Positions 4,978 to 62,684 of a stretch of 64,000 nt of DNA are shown here, piece after piece (position 1 is the stretch's first letter; each line of letters opens with the position of its first letter). Under the pieces are notes generated by a model. That model was not told the origin of the DNA. It did not search any database and saw nothing but the letters and a program-made list of their open reading frames with translations. Made by a program: the position numbers and the translations under genes. Source of the stretch: Burkholderia sp. WP9 (GTDB taxonomy: Bacteria > Pseudomonadota > Gammaproteobacteria > Burkholderiales > Burkholderiaceae); NCBI RefSeq assembly GCF_900104795.1, contig NZ_FNTG01000001.1, positions 4,650,001 through 4,714,000 on the forward strand, in the 5' to 3' direction.

Positions 4978-5057
4978 GTTATGTTGATTCCCCGGGCCGA
5001 GAGATGAACGAGCGACGACCCACGACACGCCGGGCCCTGTTGCGGCGGTGTGTGGAT

Positions 5058-5196
5058 CATCGGTCTCGCCAGGCCAGAGGCTGCGGCTGCCATGGCCGTG
5101 CAGGCCAAGTCTGTTGACAGGCGCCCCCGCGAACCACACGTGCGACGCACCCGATGACAGCGGTGCGCACGTGCCGCGAGGCGGCTACTCCCCAAT
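5058..5196 (-). promoter_or_regulatory. yybP-ykoY manganese riboswitch
   Basis: On the minus strand the leader of the GDT1 gene holds the conserved blocks of this class in order: GGGGAGTAGCC (5193-5183), then CCTGTCAACAGACTTGGCCT around 5120-5103, then GGCGAGACCGATG (5070-5058). The two paired L1/L3 metal-binding segments are flanked by complementary stems. A -10-like TATACT lies at 5211-5206, just upstream. Family knowledge: binding of Mn2+ switches on expression of manganese exporters. Confidence 0.9.
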
Positions 5197-5804
5197 GAGG
5201 GACGGAGTATAACAGGCATGGCGCCAGCCGATAATCGACTCCGTCAGCCGCGGACGCCATTGCATCTCCCAAATGGCGGGCTTGAGATAGGCCCGGCGTC
5301 GTCGACCGGTTATAAGGTCGGCAGTTGCCGACATGGAAACCTTCCAATCTGAAACATTGTTTAAGAAAGTTAGTTGAAAGTAATGATGTAATTCCGCGAA
5401 ATGCTTCTGCGCTCGTGTCGACCGCAATCCGTGTCGCGAGCGGCTTTTGCACCTGGCCGCGCAGCCGGAAATCGCGCCGCAGGCGCGCGCAACGGGTTTT
5501 TGGCGGGGCGTCGCTCGATAGATACGGATACAGATGGATACGTCTTTTGTGGCTGATTTATCCCAGAATATTCAGTATGATTCGGCGATCTTAGGGCGCC
5601 TGAGGCCATCCTCCAGACAAATCGGCGAGGGTGCCTAAATAAACGGGGCCATGTGCCGTTAAATCGCTGAACCCTATATAAGATCAGACGATTGGATCGA
5701 CCCCGGCTGGAGATTGCCGGTCCGCGCGGCGCGTACACGCTGTGACGGTGCCGTATTCCGTCAGGCGCTTCAGCCTCTCCTCGCTTCTACGCGCGAACAC
5801 CGAT
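5197..5804. promoter_or_regulatory. Intergenic region holding divergent promoters of GDT1 and the APE operon
   Basis: About 600 bases without a convincing gene. The left end carries the promoter of the manganese riboswitch. The right part, which is less GC-rich (5340-5400 and 5640-5690), should drive the aryl polyene operon; a TATATAAG stretch at 5675-5682 is the best -10-like element, but no good -35 was found. The open frame from GTG 5742 into apeC is a possible longer start of that protein. Confidence 0.4.
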
Positions 5805-49281: not shown

Positions 49282-49641
49282 ATGGCTTCTTCCCTCGCTG
49301 CATCCACTTCGCTTACCGCCATCGACGATCGCCCGGCCGATACCATCGTGCCGCTGGCCGACCTGTTTCGCCTGCTCGGCGACCCCACGCGGTTGCGCAT
49401 CGTGCTGGCGTGTCTCGACGAGCGGCGCGCCGTCGGGGCGATCGCCGAGGCGCTGGGTTTGTCGTCGTCGCTGGTGAGCCATCATTTGCGGTTGCTGCGT
49501 GCGGCGCGAATCGTGCGTGCGCAGCGGCAGGGTAAGCAGGTCTTCTACCTCGCCGCCGATCGCCATATCAGCGCGATGCTGGCCGGGATGCTCACACACG
49601 TGGCCGAACCGGCCGGCAATGATTCTCTGGATCAGTCATGA
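49282..49641 (+). CDS. ArsR/SmtB-family metal-sensing repressor
   Basis: A 119-residue winged-helix repressor. LADLFRLLGDPTRLRIVLACL and EALGLSSSLVSHHLRLLRAARIVRAQRQGKQVFYLAADRHI give the HTH and wing. The C-terminal helix contains His in DRHISAMLAGMLTHV, consistent with the alpha-5 zinc site (Asp/His pairs) of SmtB/CzrA. ATG 49282 (MASSLAAST) is preferred; upstream ATG 49237 lies within the operator and would add 15 residues. Its TGA overlaps the ATG of the CDF transporter gene, so regulator and pump are made together. Confidence 0.92.
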   Translation: MASSLAASTSLTAIDDRPADTIVPLADLFRLLGDPTRLRIVLACLDERRAVGAIAEALGLSSSLVSHHLRLLRAARIVRAQRQGKQVFYLAADRHISAMLAGMLTHVAEPAGNDSLDQS

Positions 49642-50762
49642 AGAAACCCGAAACCCCGAACGGAACTGCGGCGGATCAAGAGGACGCGCACGCGTCCACG
49701 CCGCTTGACCACGGCAACCACGATAGCCACGGCAACCACGGCAACCACGGCAACCACGGCAACCACGGCAACCACGGCAACCACGGCAACCACGGCAACC
49801 ACGGCAACCACGGCAACCACGGTCCCGCCAGCCATTCCCACAGTCACGGCCACGCCGGCCACCACCACGCTCACGCTCCGGTTGCCGGTCACGGCCGCGC
49901 GTTCGCCCTGGCGGTCGTGCTCAACATCGCGATCGTGGTGGCCCAGACGGTCTATGGCGTGCTCGCCCATTCCACCGCGCTGCTCGCCGACGCCGGCCAC
50001 AACCTCTCCGATGTCCTCGGCCTGCTGCTCGCGTGGGGCGCCGCCTGGCTCGCTACGCGCAGGCCGTCGGCGCGCTACACGTTCGGTTACGGCAGCTCGT
50101 CGATCCTGGCCTCGCTCGTCAACGCCGGGCTGCTGCTGTTCGCGTGCGGCGTGATCGTCGCGGAAGCCATCGGGCGTCTGATCAATCCGGCGCCGGTGGC
50201 GGGGCTCGCCGTGTTCGTCGTGGCGATGGGCGGCGTGGTCATCAACGGAATATCCGCGTGGCTTTTCATGCGCGGGCAGCAGGATGACCTGAACATCCGC
50301 GGCGCGTTCCTGCACATGGCGGCGGATGCCGGTATCTCGGCGGCGGTCGCCGTGAGCGGCCTCGTGATTCTCTATACCAACTGGACGTGGCTCGACCCGG
50401 TGATGAGCCTGCTCGTGGTGGCGGTCGTGGTGGCCGGCACCTGGAGCCTGCTGCGCGATTCGGTGCGCCTCGCGCTCGACGCCGTGCCGCCCGGCGTCGA
50501 TCTGCAAGGCATCCGCGACTATCTGGCGGGGCAGCCGGGCGTCGTCGACGTTCACGATCTGCACGTGTGGGCGCTGTCCACGACCGGCAACGCGCTCAGC
50601 GCGCACTTGGTGATGCCGGCGGGCCATCCGGGCGACGAATCGCTCGACGGCATCGTTCTCACGCTACGCGAACGTTTTTCGATGCACCATGCGACGCTGC
50701 AAGTGGATCTTGGTACGACGCAGCATCGCTGCGCGATGGATCATGCGCCGCACGCGCATTGA
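49638..50762 (+). CDS. CDF-family zinc/cadmium exporter with His-rich repeat
   Basis: A 374-residue cation diffusion facilitator. Residues 24-80 are extremely His-rich: ten tandem Gly-Asn-His units and then SHSHSHGHAGHHHAH. The CDF core follows with six helices: HSTALLADAGHNLSDVLGLLL carries the HxxxD site of helix 2, and FLHMAADAGISAAV the matching site of helix 5. The cytosolic C-terminal domain begins near LRDSVRLALDAVPPGVD. It exports Zn2+, Cd2+ or Co2+ in exchange for protons. The ATGA overlap with the ArsR gene and the ArsR operator set its regulation. Confidence 0.95.
   Translation: MKKPETPNGTAADQEDAHASTPLDHGNHDSHGNHGNHGNHGNHGNHGNHGNHGNHGNHGNHGPASHSHSHGHAGHHHAHAPVAGHGRAFALAVVLNIAIVVAQTVYGVLAHSTALLADAGHNLSDVLGLLLAWGAAWLATRRPSARYTFGYGSSSILASLVNAGLLLFACGVIVAEAIGRLINPAPVAGLAVFVVAMGGVVINGISAWLFMRGQQDDLNIRGAFLHMAADAGISAAVAVSGLVILYTNWTWLDPVMSLLVVAVVVAGTWSLLRDSVRLALDAVPPGVDLQGIRDYLAGQPGVVDVHDLHVWALSTTGNALSAHLVMPAGHPGDESLDGIVLTLRERFSMHHATLQVDLGTTQHRCAMDHAPHAH
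49731..49820 (+). repeat. Ten perfect tandem copies of a 9-base unit (GGCAACCAC)
   Basis: Ten error-free copies of GGCAACCAC in frame within the CDF gene, each encoding Gly-Asn-His. A degenerate copy (GGCAACCACGATAGCCAC) precedes them. The unit is a multiple of three, so copy number can change without breaking the gene. Confidence 0.98.
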
Positions 50763-60317: not shown

Positions 60318-60984
60318 TCGGTGAGACTTGAATGTACTGCCTGAAACGTGTTCTGGTTGCGGCGGCGGCAACCGAATTTCACCCGCTATGCCATGTCTGG
60401 TAAGGATTCTGCAGTTTAACTAGTGTTGGATACCACCGAAAATACCACCAAAAATGGTGTGCTACCCCATTTTTTTGCCAACGTGTTACGGCGCGTTCCA
60501 GAGTGTTCCGGCTGTGCTGAAGCCCTAGCTGCCGGCCGACAGGTGAAATCGGGCTGACTCACCGCCTGTGGATAACCATCACCGGAGACGGCTAATCCGC
60601 AGGGTCATTAAATACCCTCACCCTACATTTGAGGATACCCCTCACCTCAAAAGTGGGGAAACCCTCCCCCCAGAAACGAGGCATAGAGATTACATAAATA
60701 AAAAAACATAGATGAGGTAACAGATAGGCGCAGCTACGCTGCTTCGTCGGCTTCGCCGCCTATCTTCCTTCCCCAAAATTTCTAGAAATCAGCGATCAGG
60801 AAAAGCGCTGGCACACGTCGACATCGACATCGGAGAGGCTGGCGGCTTTCCTTCCCTGATAGCCTGCCTATTTGTTAGGCGCAAACGTCGCGCGGTGCAC
60901 TTCGCCATCGCTCATACTTCCAACTGTTCCAGCGAGTTGTGCGAATTGGTTGCACGCGCTGGCCTTTACTGGAGAAAGGGAAGT
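60318..60984. other. Probable mobile-element junction and AT-rich non-coding region
   Basis: About 670 bases without a convincing gene, and the change point between chromosome-like and element-like DNA. TACCACC is directly repeated at 60431-60437 and 60443-60449, followed by CACCA-AAAA-TGGTG, like integrase arm sites of P4-type islands. 60600-60720 is AT-rich, with CCTCACC-type repeats and a run of A. A hairpin AGATAGGCG (60722-60730) / CGCCTATCT (60757-60765) follows. No integrase gene or tRNA was found on either strand here. Confidence 0.5.
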
Positions 60985-61194
60985 ATGACCACCAAGATTC
61001 TGCGCCGCCGCGAAGTACAGCAAATCATCGGCCTTTCGTGCAGCTTCATTTACGCGTCAATGAACCGGGGCACATTCCCGGCCCCCGTTCGCTTGGGGCC
61101 TAAATCGGTGGGCTGGCGCAAAGAAGACGTTGATGCATGGCTGGCGGCGCGCGAGACGTGCCAGTACATGGGTACGAAGGCGGCAGTGCAGTGA
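60985..61194 (+). CDS. AlpA/Vis-family excisionase-regulator
   Basis: A 69-residue DNA-binding protein of the AlpA family: ILRRREVQQIIGLSCSFIYASMNRGTFPAPVRLGPKSVGWRKEDVDAWLAAR covers the helix-turn-helix and the typical closing WxxxDVDxWL. AlpA and P4 Vis activate or direct excision of integrated elements and repress the late promoter. ATG 60985 follows GGAGAAAGGGAAG; upstream codons in the same frame are not needed. It is the first gene of the element-like region. Confidence 0.92.
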   Translation: MTTKILRRREVQQIIGLSCSFIYASMNRGTFPAPVRLGPKSVGWRKEDVDAWLAARETCQYMGTKAAVQ

Positions 61195-61229
61195 TCGGCC
61201 CGGCAATGGCGGCGCGTGCAAAAAATGTG

Positions 61230-61259
61230 TTGATGACTAGCCGCCAGCGCCCGTATACT
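61230..61259 (+). promoter_or_regulatory. Sigma70-type promoter of the P4-like immunity leader
   Basis: TTGATG (61230-61235) and TATACT (61254-61259) separated by 18 bases. Transcription would start near 61266, about 35 bases before the leader hairpins and in a region with no clear gene start. Position corresponds to the constitutive early promoter of P4 (PLE). Confidence 0.7.
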
Positions 61260-61301
61260 TTCCACTCAGCCGAAACAACGGCTGACGAGATTGGCGTCTC
61301 G

Positions 61302-61344
61302 ATCAACGTAGGCGGACAAGCCGCCAGCAATGCGGCTATTTTTT
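61302..61344 (+). promoter_or_regulatory. Attenuator: antiterminator and intrinsic terminator sharing one strand
   Basis: GGCGG (61311-61315) can pair with CCGCC (61321-61325) across ACAAG. Alternatively AGCCGC (61319-61324) pairs with GCGGCT (61332-61337), followed by A and six T (61339-61344), an intrinsic terminator. Both use 61321-61324, so they exclude each other. The 5' arm of the first hairpin is part of AACGTAGGC (61305-61313), the site complementary to the downstream RNA loop. It corresponds in logic to seqA of P4. Confidence 0.65.
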
Positions 61345-61385
61345 CGTCCGTCGCGCCTTTGCACGTCTTCTATGGGCGGGCCTTG

Positions 61386-61430
61386 GCGGGGGAGCCTTCG
61401 GGCTCGCCGGTGCCTACGTTCCGGTACGCC
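61386..61430 (+). ncRNA. Candidate CI-like immunity RNA (seqB in a hairpin loop)
   Basis: Two adjacent hairpins: GAGCC-TTCG-GGCTC (61392-61405), a stable tetraloop, and CCGG-TGCCTACGTT-CCGG (61407-61424). The ten-base loop contains GCCTACGTT (61412-61420), the exact complement of AACGTAGGC at 61305-61313, and of the first eight bases at 61488-61495. In P4 the CI RNA shows its seqB this way to pair with seqA and seqC in the leader. RNA ends are guesses; only the hairpins are read from sequence. Confidence 0.55.
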
Positions 61431-61484
61431 AACCCCGTCATGCGCCCGCTCACCCCGATTGGCGTCGGAAAGCGGGCTTCCACT

Positions 61485-61498
61485 ATCAACGTAGGAGG
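61485..61498 (+). promoter_or_regulatory. seqC-like repeat overlapping a Shine-Dalgarno
   Basis: ATCAACGTAGGAGG repeats the seqA-like ATCAACGTAGGCGG (61302-61315) with one change. The change makes the ribosome-binding site AGGAGG, seven bases before ATG 61506. Pairing with the candidate CI-like RNA loop would cover part of it and block translation of the small gene that follows. Confidence 0.6.
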
Positions 61499-61505
61499 CC
61501 GCTAT

Positions 61506-61688
61506 ATGCGCCCTGTATCCGCTCGCACTGAGCAAACCCTTTCCCCTACTGAGCTGGCAAACCGCGCCTTGCGCGCCGCTGCGCTCGCCCCTACGGTCTT
61601 CGACGCGCTGGACATTTGCGCCGATGCGCTTCAAGCGCTCGCCGCGCTGGCCGTAGTCGTTCCGATGGAGGGTGCGCGCCATGTTTAA
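61506..61688 (+). CDS. Small element protein under seqC-like control (kil/eta position)
   Basis: A 60-residue protein (MRPVSARTEQTLSPTELANRALRAAALA...) starting seven bases after a perfect AGGAGG. It is largely helical and has no recognised domain. Its position, just after the CI-like RNA region, is that of P4 kil/eta. The same frame is open upstream to ATG 61206 and 61137; that longer reading contains GRALAGEPSGSPVPTFRYANP, which resembles phage Ash-family proteins, so a longer Ash-like product is an alternative. It overlaps the next gene by 8 bases. Confidence 0.55.
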   Translation: MRPVSARTEQTLSPTELANRALRAAALAPTVFDALDICADALQALAALAVVVPMEGARHV

Positions 61689-61938
61689 ACGCAATGAGAT
61701 CGCACTGAGCGCCGACGATGTTGCGGCAATGCTCGACCATGCGGCTGAGAGTTTCGGAAAGCTGGCGGCCCTGAATGCCGCTATTGCCGAGCTGGCTGCG
61801 CAGCCCAAATTAGCCCGCGACCTCGCGCGCACGGCACATGAGCTGGCGGAGGGGCTGGCGGAGGGCTTTGGCGACTTCAGGCGCGAATACGACGCCGCGC
61901 ATGCCGCCAGCAGTGAGCAAGGGGCGGCAGCGGTATGA
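61681..61938 (+). CDS. Small helical hypothetical protein of the element
   Basis: An 85-residue, almost wholly helical Ala/Glu-rich protein (MFKRNEIALSADDVAAMLDHAAESFGKLAAL...). ATG 61681 follows GGAGGG; GTG 61672 is an alternative. No family is recognised. It overlaps the preceding frame and, by ATGA, the next gene, so it belongs to one translationally coupled operon. Confidence 0.65.
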   Translation: MFKRNEIALSADDVAAMLDHAAESFGKLAALNAAIAELAAQPKLARDLARTAHELAEGLAEGFGDFRREYDAAHAASSEQGAAAV

Positions 61939-62684
61939 CGGACAAGAAAGAAACCAAGGGGACATGGCTCACCCCGGCGCTTATGGGTGAGATTGAGGCA
62001 CGGCGTGCAAGTCACATCGAAGTTGCGTTTCTGGCAGACGTTCTCGCCCTTCAAACGAAGGAGCGCGGCTGCTTTCGGCTAAACAAGGCATTTGGTGATC
62101 GGCACGGCGTTAGCACCAAGCGCGCGAGCGCCATCATTAGCGATCTGGCGGCGCGTGGATATATCGTGGTTGAGACGATCCGAAACGCTGCCGGGCAGGT
62201 AGAGGAACGTCAGATCTGGCTGGGGCCGAAATTCCCGTTGGATGGATCTGAACGTACCGCAGCCGGAGAGACTACCCGCAAGGGTATCCTCAAAAGTGAG
62301 GTGAGGGGCGCGCCGACAGTCGAAAGCGTCGGGAAAGACCATGCGCCCGCGGTCGACCAGACCGCAGAAAAATGTGGCTTGCATGAAGGAGGCGAGCAGC
62401 CGCAGGCGTCGACACAGGTGCCGCCGCAGCGCAAAGCCGAGCTGGCGCGCGTCACGAAGTCGACGGCATCGCCGCTCGCAGATCCCGCCGCCGCCTTTCA
62501 CGCTGCTATGGCTGGCCGCGCCGTCGACGAGCCGATAGCGGTTGATCCGCCGTCGCCAGTGCGCGCAGAAGATGAAGATTTGCCTTTTGGCGACGATCCG
62601 CTTGACGATTACACCAAGGCCCAGATCGCGTATCACTCAATGAACCGGGCAGCGCAATCGGCGCGATGGAGTGCCCATGGCTGA
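61935..62684 (+). CDS. Winged-helix protein of the element, possible replication initiator
   Basis: A 249-residue protein. Residues 20-95 form a winged helix (SHIEVAFLADVLALQTKERGCFRLNKAFGDRHGVSTKRASAIISDLAARGYIVVETIRN) of the type found in phage replication or regulatory proteins. The rest is Pro/Ala/Asp-rich and poorly ordered, with an acidic end (EDEDLPFGDDPLDDY). It starts in the previous stop. The following gene may be a partner, as in lambda O/P-like pairs. A motif from the upstream non-coding region recurs inside it (62289-62299). Replication function is inferred. Confidence 0.65.
   Translation: MTDKKETKGTWLTPALMGEIEARRASHIEVAFLADVLALQTKERGCFRLNKAFGDRHGVSTKRASAIISDLAARGYIVVETIRNAAGQVEERQIWLGPKFPLDGSERTAAGETTRKGILKSEVRGAPTVESVGKDHAPAVDQTAEKCGLHEGGEQPQASTQVPPQRKAELARVTKSTASPLADPAAAFHAAMAGRAVDEPIAVDPPSPVRAEDEDLPFGDDPLDDYTKAQIAYHSMNRAAQSARWSAHG

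Follow-up and report, generated by a model that had tools for sequence, protein, structure and literature searches.

Within the 64-kb window (the whole 64,000-nt stretch of Burkholderia sp. WP9 DNA analysed here), the forward strand carries, one after another, an AlpA-like gene, a promoter-like site, a leader with alternative hairpins, a C4 antisense RNA and a run of small genes. Every element that the original prediction had placed in 61230–61510 was found at its coordinates on read-back. The features are as follows.

60985–61194, + strand: AlpA-like excisionase/regulator gene, in the place of P4 ORF88 (PF05930, 59.4 bits, E 3.1e-16)
61137–61688, + strand: open frame of 183 aa, a possible eta-like reading (open reading frame list)
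61230–61259, + strand: sigma-70-like promoter, TTGATG (61230–61235), 18 nt, TATACT (61254–61259) (consensus score 9 of 12)
61266–61342, + strand: isrK-like leader with two hairpins, targets and terminator (RF01394, E 7.7e-10)
61291–61297, + strand: junction target on the upstream side, TTGGCGT (P1's a1 by position); it crosses the loop of a hairpin at 61286–61301
61305–61314, + strand: loop target on the upstream side, AACGTAGGCG (seqA; P1's b1 by position) (complementarity)
61311–61325, + strand: antiterminator hairpin GGCGG-ACAAG-CCGCC, arms 61311–61315 and 61321–61325 (folding, −9.5 kcal/mol)
61319–61344, + strand: t1-like intrinsic terminator AGCCGC-N7-GCGGCT, arms 61319–61324 and 61332–61337, then A and T6 at 61339–61344 (folding, −9.2 kcal/mol, and terminator scan)
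61311–61352, + strand: outer helix GGCGGAC (61311–61317) with GTCCGTC (61346–61352), spanning the U-tract (folding; MFE −24.1 for 61286–61352)
61368–61457, + strand: C4 antisense RNA (CI RNA) (RF01695)
61411–61420, + strand: loop segment TGCCTACGTT (seqB; P1's b′) (coordinate read-back)
61426–61432, + strand: junction segment ACGCCAA (P1's a′) (coordinate read-back)
61459–61465, + strand: junction target on the downstream side, TTGGCGT (P1's a2 by position) (complementarity)
61488–61498, + strand: downstream loop target AACGTAGG (61488–61495; seqC; by position P1's b2), which runs into the Shine–Dalgarno sequence AGGAGG
61506–61688, + strand: first gene after C4, 60 aa, unnamed, with a conserved start (14 homologues of 56–66 aa at E 0.01)
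61681–61938, + strand: second small gene, 85 aa, unnamed (four proteins at E 0.001, its own included)
61935–62684, + strand: putative replication initiation gene, a weak assignment (phrog_2880, E 0.0026; phrog_270, E 0.0046)

The small RNA at the centre of the locus matches the Rfam C4 model RF01695 (67.7 bits against a cut-off of 45; E 5.2e-11 for the whole 64-kb window) over model positions 1–87 of 87, which bears out its original assignment as a P4-type CI RNA. Its loop hairpin, CCGG-TGCCTACGTT-CCGG, starts at 61407 (+), and the loop is complementary both to seqA upstream and to seqC in the Shine–Dalgarno region downstream, as had been proposed. The junction segment was overlooked in the original prediction; it pairs with both copies of TTGGCGT, so that the loop and the junction of the RNA are each complementary to flanking targets. 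Both targets are bipartite, with the junction target first and the loop target second (15 nt from start to start upstream and 30 nt downstream). The + strand of the window contains exactly two copies of AACGTAGG, and the coding strand of a 20-kb stretch around the locus holds these two bipartite targets only. RF03163 (c4-a1b1, gathering threshold 46.7 bits) was absent from the matches up to E 1 in 61150–61560; PMC2864571 lists both c4 and c4-a1b1, and PMC12197685 refers to the c4 of P1/P7. The 5′ region of the C4 RNA contains GGG at 61374–61376, read from the sequence, and RNase P is described as processing the 5′ end of a C4-like RNA at a GG motif, which is GGW in most cases (PMC5320573).

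The leader aligns with the isrK model at 49.6 bits, 0.4 bits under the gathering threshold of 50, and this match, which covers the leader, supports on sequence grounds its reading as an island leader. The intrinsic terminator lies between seqA and the CI RNA, as in a P4-type locus, and the antiterminator overlaps both seqA and the terminator, a prediction that read-back, folding and pairing at related loci all corroborate. The terminator stem has six pairs and is followed by an A before T6, which we counted against a switch. In equilibrium folding of the leader from 61286, and hence of less than the full transcript, to the terminator, the free RNA adopted the antiterminator with a probability of 0.64–0.75 and the terminator with 0.19–0.32; blocking both upstream target segments raised the terminator to 1.0. 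The proposal that loop pairing would free the terminator holds as a prediction of folding. The outer helix had been overlooked and has counterparts in P4 and P1; it cannot decide termination, because it would form only after read-through.

The island has an AlpA-type gene upstream and an integrase, as P4-type islands do: downstream, beyond the window, lie an HK97-type capsid gene (PF05065), a DUF2971 gene and a tyrosine integrase (PF00589, PF13356), and the span from AlpA to integrase is about 9 kb. The capsid gene is a major capsid gene (L127:6662–7990). No second head gene was recognised among the ten island proteins scanned, nor an antirepressor among the proteins scanned. For alpha-type replication, and for the character of a satellite, the island offers only the weak replication-initiation matches, together with a capsid gene. 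The 60-aa protein had no Pfam or NCBIfam match; 12 of its 14 homologues were aligned, and those with an organism name come from Paraburkholderia (five) and Burkholderia (one). Overlapping the end of alpA, the 183-aa frame crosses the leader, the terminator and C4; it shares its reading phase with the gene at 61506, and the arrangement recalls P4 eta/kil. As a general feature we rejected such a frame, because not all of the related loci described below keep it open beyond seqA (it is open in 18 of the 42 dual-target loci of the genus that have an ATG, in 12 of 25 in the class and in 8 of 51 without a downstream target); here an eta-like reading is possible. Elsewhere in the window are a manganese riboswitch (4989–5205, − strand; RF00080, 53.1 bits) and an open frame at 49638–50762 that, by eye, begins with a long run of HGN repeats at its N terminus and continues as transporter-like sequence.

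C4 matches occur in 85 of 117 genomes of the genus and in 24 of 369 of the class, this genome being included in each count. We took 125 loci, part of the places found (9 of this genome, 88 from elsewhere in the genus and 28 from the class), and dropped three whose stretch was cut by a contig end (L104, L108 and L120), leaving 122. Split by the downstream target alone (score of at least 16, 24–42 nt after C4), 71 loci had this target at the expected place (46 genus, 25 class). A terminator within 110 nt 5′ of C4 was called in 44 of the 46 and 23 of the 25, against 0.08 and 0.07 in shuffles. The additional labels A and B use the terminator and were adjusted by hand: L091 was moved to B because its terminator seemed due to chance, and L022, L053, L101 and L122 were labelled A although they have no called terminator. 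Many loci have loops in common or come from one genome; the AUC tests below refer to distinct segments, and the terminator, antiterminator and folding counts refer to loci. Two further arrangements were seen: four C4 RNAs in tandem, with about 350–600 bases between successive starts, in a genome of 1.5 Mb (G377, contig C9, 1700–3092), and a dual-target C4 locus on a separate contig of 9,893 bases (L137, G000:C6), perhaps a free element.

Complementarity at the related loci is address-specific. In A loci, a locus's own loop was distinguished from swapped loops with AUCs of 0.974 upstream and 0.980 downstream (38 genus loops) and of 0.973 and 0.983 (24 class loops), and its own junction with 0.938 and 0.977 (9 genus segments) and 0.970 and 0.930 (22 class segments). 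Antiterminator arms change together (GGCGG/CCGCC in 29 loci, GGCGC/GCGCC in 6 and GAGCGC/GCGCTC in 1). Within this genome, the window loop scores 22.5 on its own leader and at most 14.5 on the other eight. Other loops of the genome are less exclusive: the L008 loop scores 26 on the L006 leader against 24.5 on its own, and the L004 loop is equally good on the L038 leader (17) and on its own (16.5).

The antiterminator was assessed in 64 loci (6 of 70 were left out, their best upstream duplex being too far from the terminator). Its pairing score was 13.6 against 8.9 in shuffles, although it beat shuffles at P 0.05 in just 58% of the 64. One of its arms overlaps the upstream target in 64 of 64 loci, and by at least 2 nt in 54, a count to which the search itself contributed in part, since arms were looked for solely between the target start and the terminator. 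The outer helix reached P ≤ 0.05 against shuffles in just 25% of the 64 loci; this test being weak, we argue for the helix from its co-varying arms (GCGGAC/GTCCGC, GCGGGC/GCCCGC, GCGCAC/GTGCGT and GCGAAC/GTTCGT).

Blocking the loop target raised the mean predicted terminator probability from 0.46 to 0.88 in 44 genus loci and from 0.54 to 0.99 in 20 class loci, whereas blocking a neighbouring stretch gave 0.55 and 0.61. The rise was at least 0.1 in 28 of the 44 and 13 of the 20 (control, 10 and 6); in one genus locus, L036, blocking lowered the terminator. Equilibrium folding thus supports a switch in about two thirds of loci. The terminator already stands at 0.8 or above in the free RNA of 16 of the 44 genus and 8 of the 20 class loci, and at 0.97 in P4; where it is dominant in this way, either the order of folding would decide or there would be little switch.

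Taken together, these results demonstrate a conserved set of sequence elements with address-specific complementarity and a predicted refolding, and we consider it very likely that the locus is the immunity leader, controlling the early operon, of an integrated P4/P1-like island. Transcription would start from 61230–61259, and the leader would first fold the antiterminator GGCGG/CCGCC, with which polymerase would read through and the C4 RNA and early genes would be made. The C4 RNA, probably processed by RNase P, would then pair in trans, its two segments on both bipartite targets. Upstream, it would sequester GGCG, so that the antiterminator would be blocked and AGCCGC/GCGGCT with T6 would stop transcription before C4; downstream, it would cover the Shine–Dalgarno sequence of the first early gene. 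The supply of C4 RNA would thereby limit itself, the early genes would be silent in the lysogen, and the cell would presumably be immune to elements that enter with an identical address. If so, islands that exclude each other should be predictable from the two-segment address.

The alternative with the strongest case, which we rate at not quite an even chance, is that the chief effect of C4 is on translation, with an indirect one on Rho, exerted at the downstream Shine–Dalgarno target, while the upstream target and terminator merely autoregulate its supply. The P1 record annotates a2/b2 as sites of icd/ant translation repression and a1/b1 as putative only, and the downstream complementarity is as strong as the upstream (AUC 0.98). 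In work by Briani and colleagues from 2000, deletion of the P4 terminator t1 reportedly still permitted lysogeny and raised CI RNA. This account is nevertheless compatible with the switch, whose share alone it shrinks, and it has to accommodate a terminator that is as regular as the downstream target: one accompanies the upstream target in 67 of 71 dual-target loci across genus and class, and also in P4 and P1. This regularity suggests that the seqA attenuator usually accompanies such C4 RNAs and is not a peculiarity of P4.

It is unlikely that the terminated leader RNA (about 61266–61344) serves instead as an IsrK-like small RNA that, carrying both target segments, would soak up C4. The isrK match of the window leader, together with the 60.8 bits of the P4 leader, would fit, as would the IsrK small RNA of Gifsy-1, which ends at a Rho-independent terminator and acts in trans, raising a long transcript about 8-fold and anrP translation 140-fold (PMC4825925). 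Such a sponge would oppose immunity unless the two RNAs differed in level, however, and co-expression of the downstream RNA with IsrK strengthened growth arrest, which its authors, considering a CI-like effect on the IsrK terminator and citing Briani et al. 2000, hold against a CI-like role there (PMC4825925). That the locus is a degenerate remnant, no longer expressed or functional, seems improbable: the island is short, and the ten proteins scanned include one recognised capsid gene and few others of phage type, but the switch and the two bipartite targets are all intact, and the 60-aa gene shows conservation.

Chance complementarity in GC-rich DNA we reject almost outright, on the C4 E value, the own-versus-swapped tests and the conservation of the terminator, even though single elements are indeed common. 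Stand-alone promoter-like and terminator-like sites number one each in 60600–61700, against 0.7 and 1.3 in shuffles, so that the predicted promoter, though present at its coordinates, is not by itself above shuffles; likewise, the target word AACGTAGGNGG alone has three other sites in the genome and is no commoner than a backward control (5 versus 15). These elements gain weight from their combination and from conservation in related loci. The + strand of the window holds two bipartite targets (junction and loop complements 5–45 nt apart), at 61289/61304 and 61457/61487, both beside C4, against 20 in 30 shuffles of the whole window, or about 0.67 per 64 kb. A TATA-like hexamer lies 90–150 nt 5′ of C4 in 26 of 49 A-labelled genus loci, the window included, against 3.0 expected.

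The other 51 of the 122 C4 loci, all from the genus, have no downstream target; among them are seven of the nine in this genome (L002, L004–L008 and L038). No terminator was called in 47 of the 51, and an upstream target was called in 45. Of the four with a terminator, L069, L072 and L093 resemble ordinary dual-type leaders and L091 resembles chance. In six of the seven units of this genome a single bipartite target lies around −50 to −59, and L004 has a weak 8-nt upstream duplex; in 15-kb stretches around the copies, on their own strand, no second target of the seven was over threshold, and for L004 no target at all. B loci in general distinguish their own loop and junction from swapped ones upstream (AUC 0.93), with no preference downstream (0.43 and 0.46). 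Their leaders mostly form a hairpin of about 10–11 bp without a U-tract, whose arms change yet stay complementary (CGCAC/GTGCG, CGTAC/GTACG and CACAC/GTGTG). The longest T-run 5′ of C4 is at most 3 in 46 of 48 B loci (60-nt windows) and at least 5 in 68 of 74 A loci (80-nt windows), a comparison that, resting on hand-adjusted labels that use the terminator, is partly definitional; the terminator count over the 51 loci is unaffected.

Directly 3′ of each of the seven units in this genome lies a gene for an unnamed protein of about 150 aa, and these are exactly the genome's seven matches. The protein occurs in 59 of 117 genus genomes, in up to 10 copies each, and has 532 homologues at E 0.001; among the 120 listed, those that carry a name are called 'hypothetical' or 'uncharacterized', apart from one called 'squalene cyclase' by one source. 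Two members were scanned for a named family, with none above cut-off in Pfam or NCBIfam. The frame is broken near its start in some copies (L002, L004 and L037). Five of the seven unit loci were checked and have ordinary chromosomal neighbours, such as transglycosylase, tryptophan dioxygenase and poly(A) polymerase, with one of ten neighbour proteins lacking a Pfam match. Of 30 genus loci compared at the transglycosylase site, two carry the ~150-aa protein, one of them in this genome; five of the stretches compared are short. Inverted repeats of about 300 bp (L133, 9879–10179 and 11338–11632) flank one terminator-less C4 unit, and several relatives without this unit still have such inverted repeats near the same gene.

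We take the terminator-less units as a derived variant, possibly a new one. More tentatively, and with our own judgement leaning somewhat against it, C4 may have moved in this genus from phage immunity to a many-copy chromosomal control unit, consisting of a one-target hairpin leader without a U-tract, C4 and the ~150-aa protein; the window switch would then be the ancestral form, from which the U-tract and the second target were lost. Since most copies keep their own address and lack a U-tract, pairing in such chromosomal units would have to act otherwise than by intrinsic termination or Shine–Dalgarno blocking, and processing, stability and Rho access are candidate modes of action. These units pose the question of what leader pairing does with neither a terminator nor a start site at stake.

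Among known systems, many C4 copies in one genome recall the Acinetobacter baumannii 'Group 1' small RNAs, 21 C4-like RNAs with variable loops that are expressed and apparently processed and have an upstream Region 1 stem–loop (PMC5320573). In the parts of that account drawn on here, Region 1 is not given as a target of the C4 loop and no attached protein family appears; two antisense small RNAs are named instead (PMC5320573). For C4 RNA in Burkholderia and Paraburkholderia, the literature matches listed hold only a one-line mention in Mycetohabitans (PMC12696581). The stripped-down chromosomal cousins in the same genome may be new, whereas the C4/P4-type switch design of the window has clear precedents in phages P1 and P4. 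IsrK of Salmonella Gifsy-1 (RF01394) likewise has leader hairpins, a target and a Rho-independent terminator, and its model aligns over 61266–61342, but the window falls just short of the curated cut-off and lacks a recognised antirepressor. The P1 record has a1 and b1 upstream and a2 and b2 downstream of c4, the layout of the window, and after b1 come a terminator-like ACCGCA/TGCGGT-ATTTTT and a helix CGGACA/TGTCCG, as in the window. C4 of P1/P7 controls icd/ant, an antirepressor, whereas the window has unnamed small genes followed by a replication-like gene.

In P4 the leader is built of the window's parts, arranged alike. P4 shares with the window the order AlpA, leader, C4, small genes and replication-like gene, its ORF88, a putative DNA-binding protein, being an alpA homologue (PMC10111431). 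In P4, RNA interactions at CI and at seqA soon bring the transcript to an end, and translation of the nested eta/kil frames prevents this termination (PMC10111431). In the P4 sequence, with seqA and seqC assigned by complementarity, the upstream target CACAGGCGAC is followed at once by GACGCG-CCA-CGCGTC-T7, the layout of the window; a helix GCGACA/TGTCGC runs across the U-tract as the outer helix does, and the downstream target CACAGGAGG lies on the Shine–Dalgarno sequence. Besides the isrK match of its leader, P4 scores 44.1 bits with RF03163, and the C4 model also matches. Briani and colleagues are said to have described antisense-dependent P4 terminators in 2000, the Rho-independent t1 needing CI RNA and seqA. 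With that work, with terminators just after the upstream target in P4 and P1 and with an Rfam isrK model that spans the terminator, the original suggestion that P4 lacks a described intrinsic-terminator switch built on seqA fails. The window has another address and other downstream genes than P4, and its switch, as predicted by equilibrium folding, is the sharper of the two (0.14 to 1.0, against 0.97 to 1.0 in P4).
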